Source of the DNA: Alphaproteobacteria bacterium
GTDB lineage: Bacteria > Pseudomonadota > Alphaproteobacteria > Sphingomonadales > Kordiimonadaceae
Assembly (NCBI GenBank): GCA_006226495.1
Contig: SBGU01000029.1
Location: forward strand, 62,001-126,000
DNA length: 64,000 nucleotides
Direction: 5' to 3'
Part shown: positions 46,614 through 56,295 of the stretch, piece after piece
How the letters are laid out: each line of letters starts with the position of its first letter
Numbering within the stretch: the stretch's first letter is position 1
Made by a program: the position numbers and the translations under genes
The notes under the pieces: generated by a model
The model's database searches: none
What the model was told of the DNA's origin: nothing
What the model saw: the letters and a program-made list of their open reading frames with translations, nothing else

Positions 46614-46706
46614 TTCCAACCTCCTGTTGTTGGAGCCGTTGCTGTTACGGTTTCCAAGCTAGGCAAGCCGGAATGAAATCTCGATCTGGATGGCGCTTCA
46701 AATGAT

Positions 46707-46732
46707 AAAGCCGGCATAAAGATGCCGGCTTT
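46707..46732 (-). terminator. Terminator after the KdpE-like gene
   Basis: An 11-bp perfect stem, AAAGCCGGCAT/ATGCCGGCTTT, with a 4-nt loop, 12 nt past the response-regulator stop. The outer A/T pairs make it a reasonable intrinsic terminator. Confidence 0.65.
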
Positions 46733-46743
46733 TGCTTCTGGCT

Positions 46744-47442
46744 TCAGGCCTGGGCCACTTCCATGCGGTAGCCGATGCCCGGTTCGGTGATGATATAGTC
46801 GGGGCTCGATGGATCGGGTTCCACCTTCTCCCGCACCTGGCTGACATAGACGCGCAGATATTGCATGTCGTCGCCATGCGCCGGCCCCCACACTTCATGC
46901 AGGATCTGCCGGTGGGTCAGCATCTTGCCCCGGTGCACCAGGAAATAGCGCAGCAGGTCATATTCCTTGGGCGTGAAATCGACCTTTTTGCCATCGATCA
47001 GCACTTCGTGGCGCACCAGGTCCATCCTGACCCGGCCGTTGACCAGCTCTGGCTCGCCCGCTTCCTGGGTCGCGGCCTTGCGAAGGTTCGCGGTCACACG
47101 GGCAATGAGCACATCCGGATTGAAGGGTTTGGTGACATAATCGTCCGCGCCCTTGTCGAAGGCCTCGATCATTTCCTTGTCGTCGCCGCGGGCCGAGCAG
47201 ACGATGATCGGCACCTGCGACCAGCCGCGCACGCTTTCAATCACTTCCTTGCCGTCCATGTCCGGCAGGCCCAGGTCCAAAAGGATCAGGTCCGGCTTCA
47301 AAGATGCGCTCAGGCGCACGGCCTCGCCGCCCTTTTCCGCTTCTTCTGCCTTCATGCCATAGGCTTCGAGCGAGATTTTCAGGAGCTTCCTGATCTGCGG
47401 TTCGTCGTCCACAACCAGGATCGTGCTTTTTTTCTGTTTCAT
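46744..47442 (-). CDS. OmpR/KdpE-family response regulator
   Basis: A 232-residue two-domain regulator. The receiver (about 6-120) has the acidic pair VVDDEPQ, phosphoacceptor Asp56 in LLDLGLP and the KPF motif in YVTKPFNPD. The DNA-binding winged helix (about 135-228) has DFTPKEYDLLRYFLVHRGKMLTHRQILHEVWG and QYLRVYVSQVREK, typical of KdpE. No kdpFABC transporter genes are present in the window. The likely kinase, a KdpD-like protein at 50616-52610, lies 3 kb away on the same strand, separated by envelope genes. Confidence 0.9.
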   Translation of the reverse strand: MKQKKSTILVVDDEPQIRKLLKISLEAYGMKAEEAEKGGEAVRLSASLKPDLILLDLGLPDMDGKEVIESVRGWSQVPIIVCSARGDDKEMIEAFDKGADDYVTKPFNPDVLIARVTANLRKAATQEAGEPELVNGRVRMDLVRHEVLIDGKKVDFTPKEYDLLRYFLVHRGKMLTHRQILHEVWGPAHGDDMQYLRVYVSQVREKVEPDPSSPDYIITEPGIGYRMEVAQA

Positions 47443-48663: not shown

Positions 48664-48849
48664 TTTATCCTCCATAGGTCGGTTAATGGGACAGACTTCA
48701 GGGTATGGAGGGGGGCATCAAGGGTCGATTGGCGGTGCAGCGGATGGATATAAATTTGCCATAAGGCCACAAAAGACGATGAAAACGCGCCAGGCCGCCA
48801 GCCCTGAGTGTGCTGGCAACATGCCGGGCCTGGTGTCGGGTATCCAAAG

Positions 48850-49154: not shown

Positions 49155-49673
49155 CTAATGATGGGCCGCGCTGCCGTTGCCGCGCATGACGCCGGTATCA
49201 TGCAGCGCCTCTGCCCGGTCGATATCCTGGCTGTCCCTGGCATCTGCAGGACGGGATTCCGTTTCGCGGGCGGCCAGGCCTTCGGTGAAGCCTTCAACCG
49301 CCTGACGGGCAACCACAAGGGCCAGGGTACCCAGGTCCTGAAACAATGATTCTGCCGGACTGGCACTGGTTTCCTGCACCATGGGAGGCGGCGGCGATGC
49401 GGCCTCGCCCCGACGCATGAAAAAGCCCCAGGCGACCGACCCGGCGGCAATCAGAAGTGCCGCCAGCACCAGAAGCGCCAACGCGGGGCTGAGGCCCAGC
49501 GACAGCATCCAGAAATAACCGGCGCCACCAAGCGCAAGGATGCCGGCCGCAATGACCGGACCGGCGACAATGGCCCCCAGAAGCCCGTAACGGGCCTGGT
49601 TGATCGGACGCTCGAGCGCAGACTGCGACGACGCAGTCTGCACCCAAAGCATTTTAAGAATGGCCTCGAACAT
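49155..49673 (-). CDS. Small membrane protein, two predicted helices
   Basis: A 172-residue protein with two strongly hydrophobic helices at about 29-55 and 58-85 (starting LLGAIVAGPVIAAGILALGG and ALALLVLAALLIAAGSVAWG). The hydrophilic tail (about 90-172) is rich in Glu/Ala and probably cytoplasmic. I do not recognise a named family. It lies 12 nt downstream of a DUF883 gene, so the pair resembles the E. coli yqjD-yqjE arrangement in layout (DUF883 protein plus small membrane protein). Its terminator is immediately downstream. Confidence 0.65.
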   Translation of the reverse strand: MFEAILKMLWVQTASSQSALERPINQARYGLLGAIVAGPVIAAGILALGGAGYFWMLSLGLSPALALLVLAALLIAAGSVAWGFFMRRGEAASPPPPMVQETSASPAESLFQDLGTLALVVARQAVEGFTEGLAARETESRPADARDSQDIDRAEALHDTGVMRGNGSAAHH

Positions 49674-49685
49674 CGGCCGCGCCTT

Positions 49686-50000
49686 CTAGTGGCGGCGGGC
49701 CAGAAGCGCCGCGACGATCGCGCCACCAGCGAAGGCGGCCGCCGTGGCCGTGAACGGACGTTCCTGGATGGCCTTTTCCGTCGCATCCCTGGCGTCGCGG
49801 GCCTGGACCTGCTTCTGGCGCAGGTACTTGCGGGCTTTCACGCCGGCGTGGCGGGCGCGGGCCTTGATATCATCCATGCTCGGCATGCCGTTCTTGGCGG
49901 TGCCGTTCGGCAGTTCTTCCTGGACACGTTCGGCCAGGATATCCTTGAGGTCTGCCAGGTCCTTTTTCAGGGCTTTGATTTCCTGCTGGGCGGTAGCCAT
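49686..50000 (-). CDS. DUF883 (YqjD/ElaB-like) membrane-anchored protein
   Basis: A 104-residue protein. An N-terminal helical, charged region (ATAQQEIKALKKDLADLKDI) leads to a C-terminal hydrophobic anchor (AAAFAGGAIVAALLARRH), the layout of DUF883 proteins such as YqjD and ElaB. These bind ribosomes and are induced in stationary phase in E. coli. The C-terminal PFTATAAAFAGGAIVAALLA segment matches the family motif. It has a good ribosome-binding site (GGAGAC) and is upstream of a small membrane protein. Confidence 0.85.
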   Translation of the reverse strand: MATAQQEIKALKKDLADLKDILAERVQEELPNGTAKNGMPSMDDIKARARHAGVKARKYLRQKQVQARDARDATEKAIQERPFTATAAAFAGGAIVAALLARRH

Positions 50001-50180
50001 GATGGTCTCCTTTCGGGTTAGGTCCTATACAACTCCAGTTTCTGGCATTCGGGTCATGGCGGTGGTGCCGTTCCCGGAATGTCCATGCCCCGAGAGTGCC
50101 CGCACGAGCCTAAAGGAACAATTCGGGTGCCGGTGCAGGGCATAAAAATCCGATAAAAGCGCCTGGCCCCGGCAAAAAAA

Positions 50181-50241: not shown

Positions 50242-50619
50242 CTAATGCAGGCGTTCGCGGATGACATCCACCAGTTCGTCAAATTCAAACGGTTTGGTGA
50301 GGAAGGCGTCGGCGCCACGTTCGGTGGCAACCTCGCGCGTGCGGCGATCGTCCCGCACGGTCAGCACCACCACGATGGGCGGATTGTCCGCCCGTGCCGC
50401 CTTTATACGGGGTAGGATCTCGAGCCCGTCCTCGTCCGGCAGGCCGAGGTCGAGCACAACCACATCCGGTGTCCGGGTGCGGCACAGGTCCAGCCCTTCG
50501 CGGGCTGTTGCCGCCTCATAGAATTCCGCGCCCCTGATGGTCAGGGATATCCTGAGGAAGGTGCGGATCGCCGGTGCATCGTCAATGGCAAGTACGGTTT
50601 TGTCGTTGAGGAAGTTCAT
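50242..50619 (-). CDS. Stand-alone response-regulator receiver protein
   Basis: A 125-residue protein made of one CheY-like receiver domain. Acidic residues lie in LAIDDAPA, the phosphoacceptor is Asp57 in VVLDLGLP, and KPF is in FLTKPFEFDE. There is no output domain, so it should work as a phospho-relay or protein-binding switch. Its start overlaps the stop of the sensor kinase (ATGA), making it the kinase's probable direct partner rather than the distant KdpE-like protein. Confidence 0.92.
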   Translation of the reverse strand: MNFLNDKTVLAIDDAPAIRTFLRISLTIRGAEFYEAATAREGLDLCRTRTPDVVVLDLGLPDEDGLEILPRIKAARADNPPIVVVLTVRDDRRTREVATERGADAFLTKPFEFDELVDVIRERLH

Positions 50620-52610
50620 GGGTTACCTCCTGTGTCTGCCCCTGATGTCGCGTACCCATCGGCCAGGGGGAAGATTAACACAAACTCGGCGCCGCCATCC
50701 GGATGGTTGGTAACAATGATGTCGCCGCCCTGGGCCTGCATCACCGATTTGGCGATCGCGAGCCCGAGCCCGGTGCCGGCCACCTGGCTGTCGCTCTTGT
50801 TCAGGCGTTCATATTTGTCAAACACCCGGTCAAGCTTGTCGTCCGGAATACCGGGTCCATGGTCCCGAATCCGATACTCGAAAAACCCTTCTGCTGCGAC
50901 GAGGCGAATATCGATCGGCGTCCTGTCCGGCGAATATTTCACCGCATTGTCGATGACATTCTGCAGCACCTGCCCGGTCATCAGGCTGTCCATATGGACG
51001 AGGCGGCCATTCGCTTCGTTGCTGACATTGACTTCCCGACCCTTCAGGCGGGTTTTCATGGTCTTGCGCACCCGGCCCAGCGGTTCCTCGGGGTCCTGTG
51101 CCTGGATGGCGAATTCGACTGCGCCGCTTTCGATGCGGGTCATGGACAGGATATTGGTGATGAAACTGTCCAGCCGCTGCGCTTCCTCGAGCGCGGTTTC
51201 CGTGAGGGTCCTGGCCTGTTCCGGCGTCAGCCGCTCCGCCATGCGCAGGCTGTGCAACACGCTCAGGCTGCCGATGATCGAGGCCAATGGTGTCTTCAGG
51301 TCGTGCGACACGCTGGACAGCAGCATGGACCGCAGTTTTTCCCGTTCCTCGCGAAAGCGGCTTTCACTCATCTCGTTCGCAAGCGTGATACGTTCGAGGG
51401 TTGCCGCCACCTGGTCGGCCACACCGGCCATCAGTTTGGCAAAGGCCGGGTCCAGCCGGAAGCGGAGCGGCACATGTACGCCGAAGGCACCATAATGGCG
51501 ATCCGCCGTGGTCATGGGTTCGAAGCGCCAGGACGTGCCGAACCCGAACAGGGTGCCATAGCCGGTGCCCCGGTTTTCCGCCCAACATTTTTCGAGCGCG
51601 GTGCGGTCCTTGTCCGGCAGCACGAGGCCGGCCGGGTATTTTTCGAAACTGCTGCCTTCCGCATCGACGGCCAGGAAAAAGCCGATATCCATGCCGAACA
51701 GGCGGCTGAGCTCCCGATCCAGGATTTCCAGCGCCTGGTGGACATTGTCGGCGTCCGCTGTCAGGCGGGCAATGTCATACAGGGCGCGGCTGCGCTGTTC
51801 GCGCCCGCGCGCGCCCTCTGCGCTGGCCCGCACATGGCCGCCAAGCACGGACACGGTGATGGCTGCGATCAGGAAGATTGCGATATTGATGATGTCGGTC
51901 AGGCTGCCGATGTTGAAGCGGTAGATCGGGATCACATAGGCATAGTTGATCACCAGTGAACTCAGCACCGACGCAACCAGCGCCGCCACGATGCCCTGCC
52001 TGAGCGCGACGATCACACACGCCAGCAGGAAGATCAGCGAGATATTGTGGTTGTTGATCTTGTATAGAATCAGGGGCATGGAAGCCTTCAGCGCCTCTGC
52101 CGCCATCACAGCACAGAAAACTGCCAGCACGGGGGCAACGAAGGTCATCCAGGTAATGGGGCCAAGGCGCAGGCGCTCCAGCAAGGTCGGTTTCACCACA
52201 TGGCCTTCAAGCGGCACGATGGTGACCTGTGCGGAACGACCATACCGGCGGGCGATCTTTTCAGCGAGCGGCCGGTCGAGAATGCCGGCAAGGCCGGTGT
52301 CCGAATGCTGGCCGACGATGATATGGCCCACGGGTTCGCCACCGGCGAAACAACCGCGGATATAATCAAGCGTCGCTTTGCCGCTGTCGGGTTCTTCCAG
52401 ATGGGCAATCAGCGCACCTTCGTCGCGCGCGCGGTCCAGAAGGCGCATCATGGCTTCGCGGCGCGAGGTGCTGCCGACACTTTCCAGCGGCTGCTCGATA
52501 TACAGCACACACCAGGAAAGGCCTGTCTCGCGGGCGCGGTTCAGACCGGCTTCCACGAGCAGGTGGCTTTTGGGGTGGCCGTCAATACAGACCAGAATGT
52601 CGAACGCCAT
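50616..52610 (-). CDS. KdpD-like membrane sensor histidine kinase with an Usp domain
   Basis: A 664-residue kinase. The N-terminal part (about 1-140, FDILVCIDGHPKSHLL) has a universal-stress-protein-like fold as in KdpD. Next come four transmembrane helices of the DUF4118 type (about 155-260), a GAF-like domain (about 285-410), a HisKA domain with phospho-acceptor His436 (SSVSHDLKTPL), and a HATPase with NVIDNAVKYSPD, DHGPGIPDDK and GTGLGLAIAKS. The larger KdpD domain with a Walker motif is missing. The start at 52610 follows AAGGTG; 52625 is possible. No kdpFABC genes are seen. It is transcribed with the receiver downstream. Confidence 0.9.
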   Translation of the reverse strand: MAFDILVCIDGHPKSHLLVEAGLNRARETGLSWCVLYIEQPLESVGSTSRREAMMRLLDRARDEGALIAHLEEPDSGKATLDYIRGCFAGGEPVGHIIVGQHSDTGLAGILDRPLAEKIARRYGRSAQVTIVPLEGHVVKPTLLERLRLGPITWMTFVAPVLAVFCAVMAAEALKASMPLILYKINNHNISLIFLLACVIVALRQGIVAALVASVLSSLVINYAYVIPIYRFNIGSLTDIINIAIFLIAAITVSVLGGHVRASAEGARGREQRSRALYDIARLTADADNVHQALEILDRELSRLFGMDIGFFLAVDAEGSSFEKYPAGLVLPDKDRTALEKCWAENRGTGYGTLFGFGTSWRFEPMTTADRHYGAFGVHVPLRFRLDPAFAKLMAGVADQVAATLERITLANEMSESRFREEREKLRSMLLSSVSHDLKTPLASIIGSLSVLHSLRMAERLTPEQARTLTETALEEAQRLDSFITNILSMTRIESGAVEFAIQAQDPEEPLGRVRKTMKTRLKGREVNVSNEANGRLVHMDSLMTGQVLQNVIDNAVKYSPDRTPIDIRLVAAEGFFEYRIRDHGPGIPDDKLDRVFDKYERLNKSDSQVAGTGLGLAIAKSVMQAQGGDIIVTNHPDGGAEFVLIFPLADGYATSGADTGGNP

Positions 52611-52723
52611 ATCACCTTGCCTCATGTCCACTGCTTTAGCACGACCGGCGACCGGGCTCCAGCCCGGGACCAAAACACCCGCGCCGGAGCCACTGTTGCC
52701 GGATGGAAGAACCGGGTTCATGA

Positions 52724-53674
52724 TCAAAGCGATGCACCGAGCATCCAGACCGCCTTGTCATGGAATTGCCTGCGGGCAACCACGATATCGGCAGTTACAT
52801 CATCACCGGCGTCTTCGGCGATCTCGAACACGCGGCGGGCCTCCTTGGTGCACAGTTCATGCGCGGCCCGCAGGTTCTTGATCATGCCCTTGGCGTCCTC
52901 GGGCAGGCGTTCATCGTCTTTTACAACCGACAGCGCTGCGAAGGCCTGCAGGGTGCCCGGCGTGAAATGGCCCAGGGCCCGGATACGTTCCGCCAGTTCG
53001 TCGCCGGCTTCGTGCAGATTCTGGTAATGCTCCTCGAAAAGGGCATGCAGGCCGATGAATTGCGGGCCGGTCACGTTCCAGTGGTAGAAGAGCGACTTCA
53101 CATACAGCGAATAGGTCGACGCCAGGAGCCGCGCCAGCGCATCAGCCACCAGCGCCTGGCTTTTGGCATCAAGCGGGGCTTCGGCCTGTTGACCATCGGC
53201 TTCAGGGGTTACGATCTTCATCGTTTCTTCTCCTTTGTTGCTGTTGGGTTTTGCATCCAGCGGCGCAGGCGTGGGCGCCTTGGCCTCGGGAAATTCATGG
53301 CTGTCGGATGCCTCGATAAGGCGTTCGAGTGCATCAGAGACATCGCGGAGCGCACGGGCATACCGGTGCTGGATCGATTCTTCCTGATCCAGTGCCTCCG
53401 GGAATTCATCGGCGGCGCGCTGCTGTTCGCGAAGCGCAAGTTCGATGCGGTTGCGCAGGTTGTCCAGGCTTTCGGGGCCGTATTTCTCCAGCGCGTCAAG
53501 CGCGGTCATCGAGCCGGCATAGACCCGGTCGGTCCAGCGCACCAGGGCGCCAAGTTCCGCAACCATGCCTTCGGCCTCCAGCGCCCGCTGGTTCCGCTTG
53601 AGGCACTGGTGCAGGCTTACGGCAAATGCGTCGAATTCATTTCCCTTTCCGTAACGGGCCGTTGTTGCACTCAT
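52724..53674 (-). CDS. dps: Dps-family ferritin with an N-terminal helical module; internal in-frame start
   Basis: A 316-residue open frame. The last 165 residues (from an internal ATG at 53221) are a full-length Dps. Canonical di-iron ligands are His47, His59, Asp74 and Glu78 in that numbering (YHWNVTG, HALFEEHYQNLHEAGDELAERI). Dps protects DNA and oxidises iron with H2O2. The first 151 residues (from ATG 53674, after AAGGAGAG) are helical, with no family I recognise. The internal ATG has its own AAAGGAGAAG site 5 nt upstream, encoded as Lys-Gly-Glu-Glu. Either two products are made, or an adjacent gene fused by stop-codon loss. APLDAK occurs on both sides of the junction. Confidence 0.85.
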   Translation of the reverse strand: MSATTARYGKGNEFDAFAVSLHQCLKRNQRALEAEGMVAELGALVRWTDRVYAGSMTALDALEKYGPESLDNLRNRIELALREQQRAADEFPEALDQEESIQHRYARALRDVSDALERLIEASDSHEFPEAKAPTPAPLDAKPNSNKGEETMKIVTPEADGQQAEAPLDAKSQALVADALARLLASTYSLYVKSLFYHWNVTGPQFIGLHALFEEHYQNLHEAGDELAERIRALGHFTPGTLQAFAALSVVKDDERLPEDAKGMIKNLRAAHELCTKEARRVFEIAEDAGDDVTADIVVARRQFHDKAVWMLGASL

Positions 53675-53805
53675 GACACTCTCCTTTTCTTCCGAAGGGT
53701 GCCGCCTCGGGCATGAGTTTTCGATTGGGGAGCCGCCACCTGACATAAAGGGACCGTAAAGATGCCCGAATCCGGCCACACACGGAGACGGTCAAAACGG
53801 CGCCA

Positions 53806-53833
53806 TTGACTGTAACCATACGTTGTCTAAACT
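53806..53833 (+). promoter_or_regulatory. Candidate promoter of the tandem membrane-protein genes
   Basis: TTGACT (53806-53811), a 16-nt spacer and TAAACT (53828-53833) lie about 65 nt upstream of the first gene in the three-gene set. Both boxes are reasonable matches to the sigma70 consensus. Confidence 0.35.
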
Positions 53834-53896
53834 GATTTTTCCGAGTACCGGCCAACCTGCTGGTCGCGGTCGGAACATAAAATTGGGGGATATTTC

Positions 53897-54694
53897 ATGA
53901 GCGATATGAACGCGGGGCAGGTACTGCCCGAATTCCGCGTGGGTGACGTACTGTCGCAGACTTTCAGCACATTGTTTGGCAATTTTTTCAAGATCGTGCT
54001 GCTTGGCATCCTGTTCTATGTGGTATTCGGCCTGGTGATGATGCTGTTCACCGGCAGCTTTTCCGCCGCGGTTGAAGGCGGCCTTGGCAGCAATGGCGCT
54101 TTGCCTTCGGTGCCGCTGTTCGTCGGCTATATTCTCGGCATGGTCGTCCTCTCGATGGCTATCCAGGCGGCCATTACCTACGGTGCCATCGAATTCCAGG
54201 CCGGGCGCAGGGCGCCGCTGGGTGCCATGCTGCGTGTCGGCATGGGCTCGATCGTTTCGGTCATCATCGCCTCCATCATCATCGGCATCGCTGTCGGTAT
54301 CGGCAGCCTGCTGCTCCTGATCCCCGGCATCATCATCTGGCTGATGATGAGCATCACCATCCCGGTCATCGTGGCAGAAGGCAAAGGCCCGTTTGACGCC
54401 ATGGAACGCAGCGCAAGCCTGACCAAGGGGTACAAATGGTCGGTTTTCGGCTCCTATATCGTGGTCATGATCGTGGCCTGGCTTATTGACATTGTCCTGA
54501 CGTTCGCAGGCGGCCTCATTGCCGGCATCGCCGGTGCTTCGGGTGCCCAGCAGACGGTATTGCTGATCGTCGCCGTGGTGTCAGGCGCACTGTTCTATGG
54601 TCTGAACGCCTGTTGCGTTGCATCCATCTATACGGGCCTGCGGGCCGCCAAGGAAGGCACCGGCGTCGACGAGATCGCCAAAGTCTTCGAATAG
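53897..54694 (+). CDS. Multi-pass membrane protein, first of three tandem paralogs
   Basis: A 265-residue protein with about six hydrophobic helices, resembling the membrane domain found in glycerophosphodiester phosphodiesterases of some bacteria. Common features with the two downstream genes are an N-terminal RVGDVLSQTF-like segment, LLLLIPGIIIWLMMSITIPVIVAEGKGPFDAMERSASL, and a C-terminal tail DEIAKVFE. No catalytic motif is seen. It is divergent from dps. Function is not known; context with the convergent MoxR cluster suggests an envelope role. Confidence 0.75.
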   Translation: MSDMNAGQVLPEFRVGDVLSQTFSTLFGNFFKIVLLGILFYVVFGLVMMLFTGSFSAAVEGGLGSNGALPSVPLFVGYILGMVVLSMAIQAAITYGAIEFQAGRRAPLGAMLRVGMGSIVSVIIASIIIGIAVGIGSLLLLIPGIIIWLMMSITIPVIVAEGKGPFDAMERSASLTKGYKWSVFGSYIVVMIVAWLIDIVLTFAGGLIAGIAGASGAQQTVLLIVAVVSGALFYGLNACCVASIYTGLRAAKEGTGVDEIAKVFE

Positions 54695-54817
54695 GTTCCT
54701 GCCGCCCCGGCCCGCATCGGCCGGGGCTTCCCACCTCACGGAAGCACCATGAAACAAGTCAAGTCCAACGCATTGTATCAGCCGTCGATACCCGCACAGC
54801 ACACAGGGGGAAGCGCC

Positions 54818-55561
54818 ATGCGCGATTTTCAGATCGGCGGAACACTGGGAACAGCGTTTCAGTTGTTGTTCGGGAATTTTGGCAGTTTTGTCCTGATCGG
54901 CATGCTGGCGTTTTTGCCGCTCGCGCTCTGGATGGCTGCGGTCGCGAGCCCGGAACATACCGAAATTCTCGGCGTATTCGGCGCCGGATGGGCAGGCATC
55001 GGCTCCAGCATATTTGCCACCATGCTGTTCACCTATATCGCCTATGGCGCCATCGTGCATGGTGCGATCCAGAGCCATGCCGGTCATGACGCGGGTCCCG
55101 GGGCCATGCTGGGTGGTGCCGTGAATACACTGCCGGCGGTCCTGGCCGCGTCGCTGATGTCCGCTGTCATCATCATCATCGGATATGCGCTGCTTTTGAT
55201 CCCCGGCATCATTTTTAGCGTCATGCTGTTCGTGACCATCCCGACCATCATTGAGGAGGGACAGGGGCCCGTCGCTGCCCTGCGGCGCAGTATTGAACTG
55301 ACCGACAGCTATCGCTGGCCGATTTTCTGGACCAGCGTCGTGGGCGGCCTTGTAACCGGCGTACTGTCGATGGTCATGAGCCTGATCGGCAATGCCATCG
55401 TGACCGGCGGTTCGTCACCTTTCATCGAAGCAGGCCTGTTCCTGATCGAATCGGGCTTGTCGACCGCGTTCAGCGGTGCATTGGTCGCCGCCGTCTATCT
55501 GGAACTGCGCGAAATTCGCGAAGGCATCCCGGACGACCGGATCGCCGAGACCTTTGCATGA
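54818..55561 (+). CDS. Multi-pass membrane protein, second of three tandem paralogs
   Basis: A 247-residue paralog of the preceding protein, with the same order: FQIGGTLGTAFQLLFGNFG, six hydrophobic helices, LLLIPGIIFSVMLFVTIPTIIEEGQGPVAALRRSIEL and a C-terminal DRIAETFA. The ATG at 54818 is chosen to match the paralog N-termini and has AGGGGGA upstream; an in-frame ATG at 54749 would add 23 residues. It ends with an ATGA overlap into the third gene. Confidence 0.72.
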   Translation: MRDFQIGGTLGTAFQLLFGNFGSFVLIGMLAFLPLALWMAAVASPEHTEILGVFGAGWAGIGSSIFATMLFTYIAYGAIVHGAIQSHAGHDAGPGAMLGGAVNTLPAVLAASLMSAVIIIIGYALLLIPGIIFSVMLFVTIPTIIEEGQGPVAALRRSIELTDSYRWPIFWTSVVGGLVTGVLSMVMSLIGNAIVTGGSSPFIEAGLFLIESGLSTAFSGALVAAVYLELREIREGIPDDRIAETFA

Positions 55562-56295
55562 CAAAGGTGCCGGAGGCAGGCGCGGTACACCTGGGGGCAG
55601 TCCTCGCGGATGCCTGGTACCTGATCCGGCACCTGTTTGTGCAGCAACTGGCGGCGGGCCTTCTGCTGATGCTGCCGCTGATTGGCCTGATCGCGCTTCT
55701 TAACGGCGGACTGTCGGTCCTGACCGACGCGGAATCCATCGGATACTGGGTCTATTCGGTGCTGGCGCCAGCCGTGCTGTGGGGTGCTGTCGGCACCTTC
55801 TGCACCACCGGCAACCTAGCGCTACTGGACGGCACGCCGCTGTCTGTTGGCGACACCCTGCGCCAAAGTCTCAAATATTGCCTGCCGATCCTGGTGGCCG
55901 AAATTGTGCTGACCATCGCCGCGGGCATCGGCATGATTCTCCTGGTCGTGCCCTATTTCATAGTTGTCGGTTTTACCATGGTTGTCATGCCCGTGATCGT
56001 GGCGGACCGGCGCGGGCCGCTGGCGGCGCTCAAGCGCAGTGGACAGATGATCAGGGGCAATTTCTGGCGGGCGCTGGCACTGGCGCTCCTTTACATGGTG
56101 CCCTATCTGGTCCTCGAGGAACTGCTCTGGTACCAGATTCCGGACCCGGAACCCTTCTGGTACGCCATCGGCACCTTTGGCATGAGCGCCACCACCGCCG
56201 TGGTGGCAACCGCCTTCAGCGCCAGCCTGTACCAGCACCTGCAGGCCGCCTGGTCTGGCGACAGCCACGCTGAAATCGAACAGGTTTTCGAGTAA
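55558..56295 (+). CDS. Multi-pass membrane protein, third of three tandem paralogs
   Basis: A 245-residue protein of the same layout and more diverged. VHLGAVLADAWYLIRHLF replaces the first motif, LLVVPYFIVVGFTMVVMPVIVADRRGPLAALKRSGQM the central one, and the tail is AEIEQVFE. The start overlaps the second paralog by 4 nt. It converges with the RDD gene, with 17 nt between stops. All three keep the proline-containing helix followed by a P-V-I-V-x-D/E-x-x-GPxxAL-x-RS amphipathic segment. Confidence 0.72.
   Translation: MTKVPEAGAVHLGAVLADAWYLIRHLFVQQLAAGLLLMLPLIGLIALLNGGLSVLTDAESIGYWVYSVLAPAVLWGAVGTFCTTGNLALLDGTPLSVGDTLRQSLKYCLPILVAEIVLTIAAGIGMILLVVPYFIVVGFTMVVMPVIVADRRGPLAALKRSGQMIRGNFWRALALALLYMVPYLVLEELLWYQIPDPEPFWYAIGTFGMSATTAVVATAFSASLYQHLQAAWSGDSHAEIEQVFE

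Follow-up and report, generated by a model that had tools for sequence, protein, structure and literature searches.

How many proteins does a gene specify when a complete second start lies inside its own frame? We investigated this question at a locus in a 64,000-nt stretch of Kordiimonadaceae DNA (hereafter the window), where one minus-strand open reading frame of 316 codons joins 151 N-terminal residues to a 165-residue Dps with no stop codon between them. Dps is a cage protein that stores iron and protects against stress. This in-frame fusion, described in an earlier note on the same DNA without its strand, was confirmed. As set out below, sequence comparison makes it probable that one gene here encodes a second Dps (Dps2) in two subunit forms, a long one of 316 residues and a plain one of 165. 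The gene, dps2, comprises the following features:

53681..53685, minus strand: Shine-Dalgarno sequence AGGAG for the long-form start, read from the sequence
ATG 53674-53672 to TGA 52726-52724, minus strand: dps2 fusion gene, 316 aa, no internal stop
53222..53674, minus strand: N-terminal module and linker, residues 1-151 of the long product, from the ATG start at 53674
53222..53302, minus strand: low-confidence linker (residues 125-151, pLDDT <50), which holds the internal ribosome-binding site
53229..53234, minus strand: internal Shine-Dalgarno sequence AGGAGA, at -13 to -8 of the internal ATG, invariant in five of five fused genes
53219..53221, minus strand: internal ATG, putative start of the short product; Met invariant in six of six aligned sequences
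52724..53221, minus strand: Dps part, 165 aa plus stop, residues 152-316 in the long form; PF00210, E 1.7e-25

The open frame reaches further upstream to a GTG at 53779 (351 aa), but ATG 53674 is the likely start of the long form because it has a strong Shine-Dalgarno sequence of its own (AAAAGGAGAGTGTC). The internal ATG at 53221-53219 is preceded by AAAGGAGAAGAAACG. The hexapeptide APLDAK, which the earlier note had placed on both sides of the junction, is indeed encoded at 53249-53266 and 53162-53179 (minus strand), with codons that have diverged between the copies. The pair is absent from the six other aligned loci and is thus private to the genome of the window (G000), whose linker is also the longest; it may record a small duplication.

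The Dps half is complete, as had been proposed: residues 152-316 match PF00210 at 90 bits against a cut-off of 24.5. Its nearest solved chain by sequence is Pseudomonas aeruginosa PA0962 (8ff9; E 1.1e-37), with a fold match of TM 0.88 normalised by the target; PA0962 differs in being a plain Dps chain of 156 residues without an N-terminal module. Residues H198, W199, H210, D225 and E229, which by their spacing correspond to the inter-subunit ferroxidase set, are invariant in six of six aligned sequences. With 76 bits against a cut-off of 114 for the enterobacterial-type Dps equivalog NF006975 (PRK09448), Dps2 is by sequence score a Dps-family protein that is not filed under that equivalog, and by homology it would assemble as a 12-mer. 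The Dps2 proteins are acidic (pI 4.9-5.3), and an E. coli-type DNA-binding tail is doubtful because the first 20 residues of the short form contain two lysines, a point tempered by the five in G007. G000 also encodes a second, ordinary Dps on another contig.

The N-terminal module had been called an unrecognised helical protein. The first part of that description stands, as no Pfam or NCBIfam family scored over its cut-off with residues 1-151; the second holds as a low-confidence prediction of helices at 4-8, 12-34, 38-53, 58-90 and 98-125 followed by a disordered tail (mean pLDDT 65 for the module and 66 for the whole fusion, with residues 125-165 below 50). The best Pfam match, DUF2959, was set aside at 18.4 bits against a gathering cut-off of 26.8, and was found in one of six module members at E ≤0.5. 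Eight further Pfam families each matched one of the six members scanned (E 0.0033 to 0.5), and NCBIfam gave none at E ≤1. A PDB sequence search returned four matches at E ≤1, which we took as helix noise: the best was PtuA (0.0026), and two of the other three are designed proteins or scaffolds. Foldseek with the module model reached E 0.67 at best, with none at 0.001. VIA-align 2 gave a best Z of 9.6 (7c79_L), where scores below about 13 may, by the tool's guidance, reflect an arrangement common among helical bundles; copper storage proteins (Csp) recur at Z 5.6-7.9, a range that the tool calls common and that was obtained with a low-confidence helical model. Modules of the fused genes are acidic (pI 4.7-6.0).

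We then asked how widely the fusion is distributed. The Dps2 subfamily was present in 6 of 59 genomes, G000 included. Searching 396 genomes from the order recovered these six again and one further match, G641, a plain Dps of 48% identity; a class-wide search at E 1e-45 recovered only G000, of 385 genomes. Five of the six (G000, G004, G007, G010 and G013) share a single genus; G010 is Kordiimonas gwangyangensis DSM 19435, G013 an uncultured Kordiimonas (176-3Z) and G004 the MAG HF-Din21. The sixth, G029, is an uncultured alphaproteobacterium from a different family of the same order. An alignment scan of genome contigs yielded 12 loci: five (L044 to L048) fall in the Dps2 subfamily and seven are other Dps. 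It added a single new Dps2 locus, L048, from the MAG WBA_2_307. A single-sequence scan of the contigs with the module found nothing. Among plasmids, 664 records matched the query, none covering 80% of it, and the 15 matches listed all fell in the Dps half. A profile of the module recovered, from the 396 genomes of the order, the same six genomes together with G451 (E 1.2e-12) and three marginal matches (E 0.003 to 0.008); an earlier version of the profile gave one additional marginal match, G009 (E 0.001). The G451 copy (L064, 6189-6569) stands alone, with no dps recognised in the surrounding 13 kb, and by eye its neighbours include stress-protein-like and ZIP-type-transporter-like genes.

The seven Dps2 loci form one clade (100/99), and five of them are fused in frame: four from Kordiimonas (G000, G007, G010, G013) and G029. 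Next to the 316 aa of G000, the other four fused products come to 298 to 303 aa when counted from the assigned starts, which include a GTG in G013 and, in G007, a codon that the true start may precede by five codons. Among 44 Dps matches at E ≤1e-20, open frames span 307-411 codons in the five fused genes, 189 in split G004 and at most 222 in the remaining 38; the same set contains a second Dps for G000, G004, G007, G010 and G013 and none for G029. In G004 a TAG closes the module gene; AGGAGG and then the dps ATG, which lies in a different frame, come after it. In L048, dps is preceded by a separate ORF with weak similarity to the module profile (E 2.6e-5, in a small set), and a small ORF lies between the two. 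The earlier note had expected a stop between the modules in relatives if the fusion were recent, and an open frame with its Shine-Dalgarno sequence in all of them if both products were translated. The relatives divide: open frame, Shine-Dalgarno sequence and ATG are kept in five of seven, and a stop with a change of frame appears in G004, alongside the separate, weakly matching ORF of L048.

This distribution bears on the possibility that only the short Dps matters, an upstream stop having been lost and the long form being a tolerated by-product. Such a view draws on G004, where a stop and an AGGAGG ahead of dps hold the two proteins apart, on the separate ORF of L048 with its weak similarity, and on the rapid evolution of the module, which retains 16-54% identity between loci. 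We nevertheless consider it unlikely, given that the open frame is kept in five divergent genomes from two families although the fused-gene linkers vary in length, and that the module carries a signature of coding constraint. In each of the 10 pairwise comparisons of fused genes, identity is higher at codon positions 1 and 2 than at position 3 (0.23-0.40 at position 3), and by this measure the module is translated and constrained. Since a translated module with no stop before Dps leads ribosomes onward into Dps, the long form would be made.

The trees allow more than one history of the fused and split arrangements. With L048 as outgroup and G013 excluded, support is 96/74 for the separation of Kordiimonas from G029 and 68/46 for placing G004 next to the fused Kordiimonas; including G013 gives 95/57 and 70/27, and a kinase tree 78/52 and 73/39. 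A Dps-plus-module tree pairs G004 with G013 instead (89/36), and in the Dps tree L048 branches first with the other six drawn open. G004 may therefore be nested among fused loci, at these weak values, and one fusion with a later split in G004 is compatible with the trees, as are separate ancestral genes. Reading L048 as a split ancestor depends on its upstream ORF being homologous to the module. The covalent link is dispensable at least in G004, because that genome does without the fusion.

The internal start was the other element on which the earlier note had relied, and its strong Shine-Dalgarno sequence was upheld both in the window and in the fused relatives. AGGAGA occupies -13 to -8 of the internal ATG in all five fused genes, whereas the adjoining linker (-39 to -16) has a mean pairwise nucleotide identity of 0.31, near chance, when the five are right-anchored on the ATG. 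Column -15 is the single extra invariant among 39, and the spacer at -7 to -1 is variable. Codon shuffles gave no run of six invariant columns in 20,000 trials (longest run, three). The glycine inside the hexamer is encoded by GGA in all five genes, a codon whose share of the glycine codons, counted over long ORFs, is 5.2, 6.1, 6.5, 16.8 and 13.2% in the five loci (5 to 9 ORFs in four of them); the product of these fractions, 4.6e-6 if independent, overstates independence because the genes share ancestry. The internal Met aligns with the plain dps start of split G004 (MKLVxP), and is invariant in all six sequences aligned.

Predicted pairing with an assumed anti-Shine-Dalgarno tail is -8.7 at the internal start in four fused genes and -7.3 in one, values that rank 4 and 7 of 378 window controls; the window's own internal site ranks 4, better than expected by chance. 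These controls are in-frame ATG codons in 59 long window ORFs that were called mechanically, some of them probably spurious, and they include the internal site and the gene's own start. Predicted RNA structure is weak around the internal start (ranks 19/303, 38/285, 13/288, 19/289 and 69/290), with G010 ranking best (13/288) and G029 least (69/290). A drop in GC is clear in the window gene (7/304), weaker in G013 (35/290) and G010 (60/289), and absent in G007 (98/286) and G029 (112/291). By these comparisons a strong in-frame internal Shine-Dalgarno sequence is conserved across relatives. Dual translation, which the earlier note had regarded as plausible, is well supported because the Shine-Dalgarno sequence and its spacing are invariant though the surrounding linker is nearly randomised.

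The same data speak to the converse idea that only the long fusion is made and the internal Shine-Dalgarno sequence is an unused relic of a separate gene. Internal sequences of this kind are not necessarily active, and the five fused genes have a common ancestry; but hexamer, spacing, ATG and rare codon have all been kept in a randomised linker where a relic would decay, and we regard this idea as improbable. Slightly less credible still is cleavage of the long product within the linker into free module and Dps, the fusion serving only to fix their ratio: the linker is predicted to be unstructured and module and dps are separate genes in G004, yet the linkers have no obvious motif in common besides the residues encoded by the Shine-Dalgarno sequence, and free Dps would already be supplied by internal initiation. 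A stop or frameshift hidden by sequencing error, the objection raised in the earlier note, could account for a single case and has a negligible chance of being right, because four further genomes carry the same open frame, G007 on a 4.04 Mb contig.

We therefore return to the reading of one gene with two subunits, and infer that both products exist in the cell. Ribosomes starting at ATG 53674 would make 316 residues, first the module, acidic and probably a helical bundle, then a flexible linker and Dps; those entering at the internal AGGAGA and ATG 53221 would make the plain 165-residue Dps2. Co-assembly is possible because the whole Dps fold and its ferroxidase residues are common to both forms, so that long and short subunits may mix in one 12-mer. 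The N-terminus of Dps points outward; for this reason the module would decorate the outside of the cage, and the two start sites would determine its copy number. Most likely, the module would act as an adaptor that docks or tethers the cage to a protein partner, with the number per cage held below twelve; this role is a guess, because the module model is of low confidence (pLDDT 65; fusion, 66).

Cages of mixed subunits have precedents. H/L ferritins are mixed-subunit cages, and the subunits of both these and the hetero-bacterioferritins are encoded by separate genes. Dps2 would resemble them in forming a mixed ferritin-family cage, and differ in drawing its subunits from one gene. For bacterioferritins, hetero-multimeric cages with mixed subunits are reported (PMC12120770). 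Internal initiation is established elsewhere: in beta-cyanobacteria, CcmM is made as long M58 and as short M35 via an internal ribosome binding site (PMC8580825 and PMC11005335, from the portions available). CcmM parallels dps2 in its single gene, its internal start and an additional N-terminal domain confined to the long form, and both of its forms enter one assembly; it differs in being an unrelated protein, a Rubisco scaffold, whereas the common part here is a self-assembling ferritin-like cage. CheA, ClpB, InfB and ClpA likewise have truncated partners from in-frame internal initiation, and N-terminal proteoform pairs in Salmonella are enriched among (inner membrane) higher-oligomer-forming proteins, as stated in the available text of PMC11005335. 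None of these four is a Dps or a ferritin, and the word Dps is absent from that text in the form available. Searches of the open-licence literature turned up no Dps or other ferritin-family cage for which a single gene is reported to give two products, and no description of the present gene; Kordiimonas and Dps co-occur there in a review on alkane degraders. The principle is known from CcmM and CheA, and more widely from scaffolds and kinases; as far as could be seen, its use in a protein of this kind is new. If the reading is right, one cistron would furnish a symmetric cage with large domains in sub-stoichiometric number, and nature would have solved a problem of protein design. The reading can be tested directly thanks to the natural contrast between five fused loci and one relative that is clearly split.

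We also examined the surroundings of dps2. The neighbouring features are:

53744..53760, minus strand: KdpE-box-like direct repeat TTTACG-N5-TTTATG upstream of dps2, with half-sites after the available text of PMC3264566
53710..53725, minus strand: second upstream element ATCGAAAACTCATGCC, which lies 35-36 nt past the box start in the five loci compared
50616..52610, minus strand: KdpD-like sensor kinase downstream, start codon tentative; DUF4118, HisKA and HATPase, with Usp below cut-off
50242..50619, minus strand: receiver-only response regulator, PF00072 E 6.2e-24
49155-50000, minus strand: DUF883-like gene, then a small membrane protein; PF19029 below cut-off
46744..47442, minus strand: KdpE-like response regulator and a candidate for binding the box; best NCBIfam model KdpE

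The kinase scores 290 bits against a KdpD cut-off of 1123 and the regulator 211 bits against a KdpE cut-off of 325 (NCBIfam), so by these scores the neighbours are Kdp-like and not filed as KdpDE. A KdpD-like kinase follows dps2 in G000, G004, G007, G010 and G029 and, in part, in L048; the stretch of G013 examined showed no such kinase. The receiver-only regulator adjoins the kinase in G004, G007 and G010 too, where the DUF883-like gene (presumably of the ElaB/YqjD type) and the small membrane protein are also conserved 3' of the kinase-regulator pair. Homologues of the KdpE-like regulator lie near dps2 in G029 and L048.

The half-sites of E. coli KdpE are TTTATA and TTTACA, 5 bp apart (PMC3264566, available text). 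The pattern TTTAYR-N5-TTTAYR, which resembles them, precedes five of seven Dps2 genes (G000, G004 with one mismatch, G007, G010 and G029), 85-105 nt before the assumed long start (in G004, the module start), and a ATCGAAAAYTCA-like sequence lies 35-36 nt after the start of that box in the same five; close upstream of dps2 in G013 and L048 there was no match to the box. The likeness to E. coli KdpDE thus extends to box and neighbours, and the differences are that both neighbours fall below the curated cut-offs and that the target here is a Dps. Both patterns were drawn after seeing the upstream alignment, so the match at dps2 is by construction. With up to one mismatch, the window contains four matches against 0.29 expected, a number reached in none of 100 shuffles, all on the minus strand (53744-53760, 50141-50157, 48749-48765 and 46704-46720); the last may, by eye, be the terminator hairpin of the regulator gene. 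Two of the four precede dps2 and the DUF883-like gene, with similar sites at both places in G004, G007 and G010. Six neighbour loci, leaving out L064 (no matches) and L046 (a duplicate of L067), contain 24 matches against about 4.2 expected from 20 simple shuffles each. Genome-wide, a stricter pattern gave three matches, the same as its reversed control; the enrichment is clear locally and not genome-wide. An EcfG-type promoter pattern was found in none of six upstream regions, and a sigma-70 scan gave no minus-strand site within 52500-54000.

More tentatively, and with less confidence than in the two products themselves, these elements could be combined: the decoration of a ferritin-family nanocage would be written into one gene, with internal initiation setting how many of the twelve Dps2 subunits display an outward adaptor module. 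Under Kdp-like two-component control, such a gene might allow K+ or osmotic stress to call up a tethered cage for iron handling, separate from the ordinary Dps in the same cell. On the opposite strand, divergent from dps2, lie three consecutive similar-looking membrane protein ORFs (53897-56295, plus strand), the first of which has matches to GPDPase_memb and UPF0259 below cut-off.
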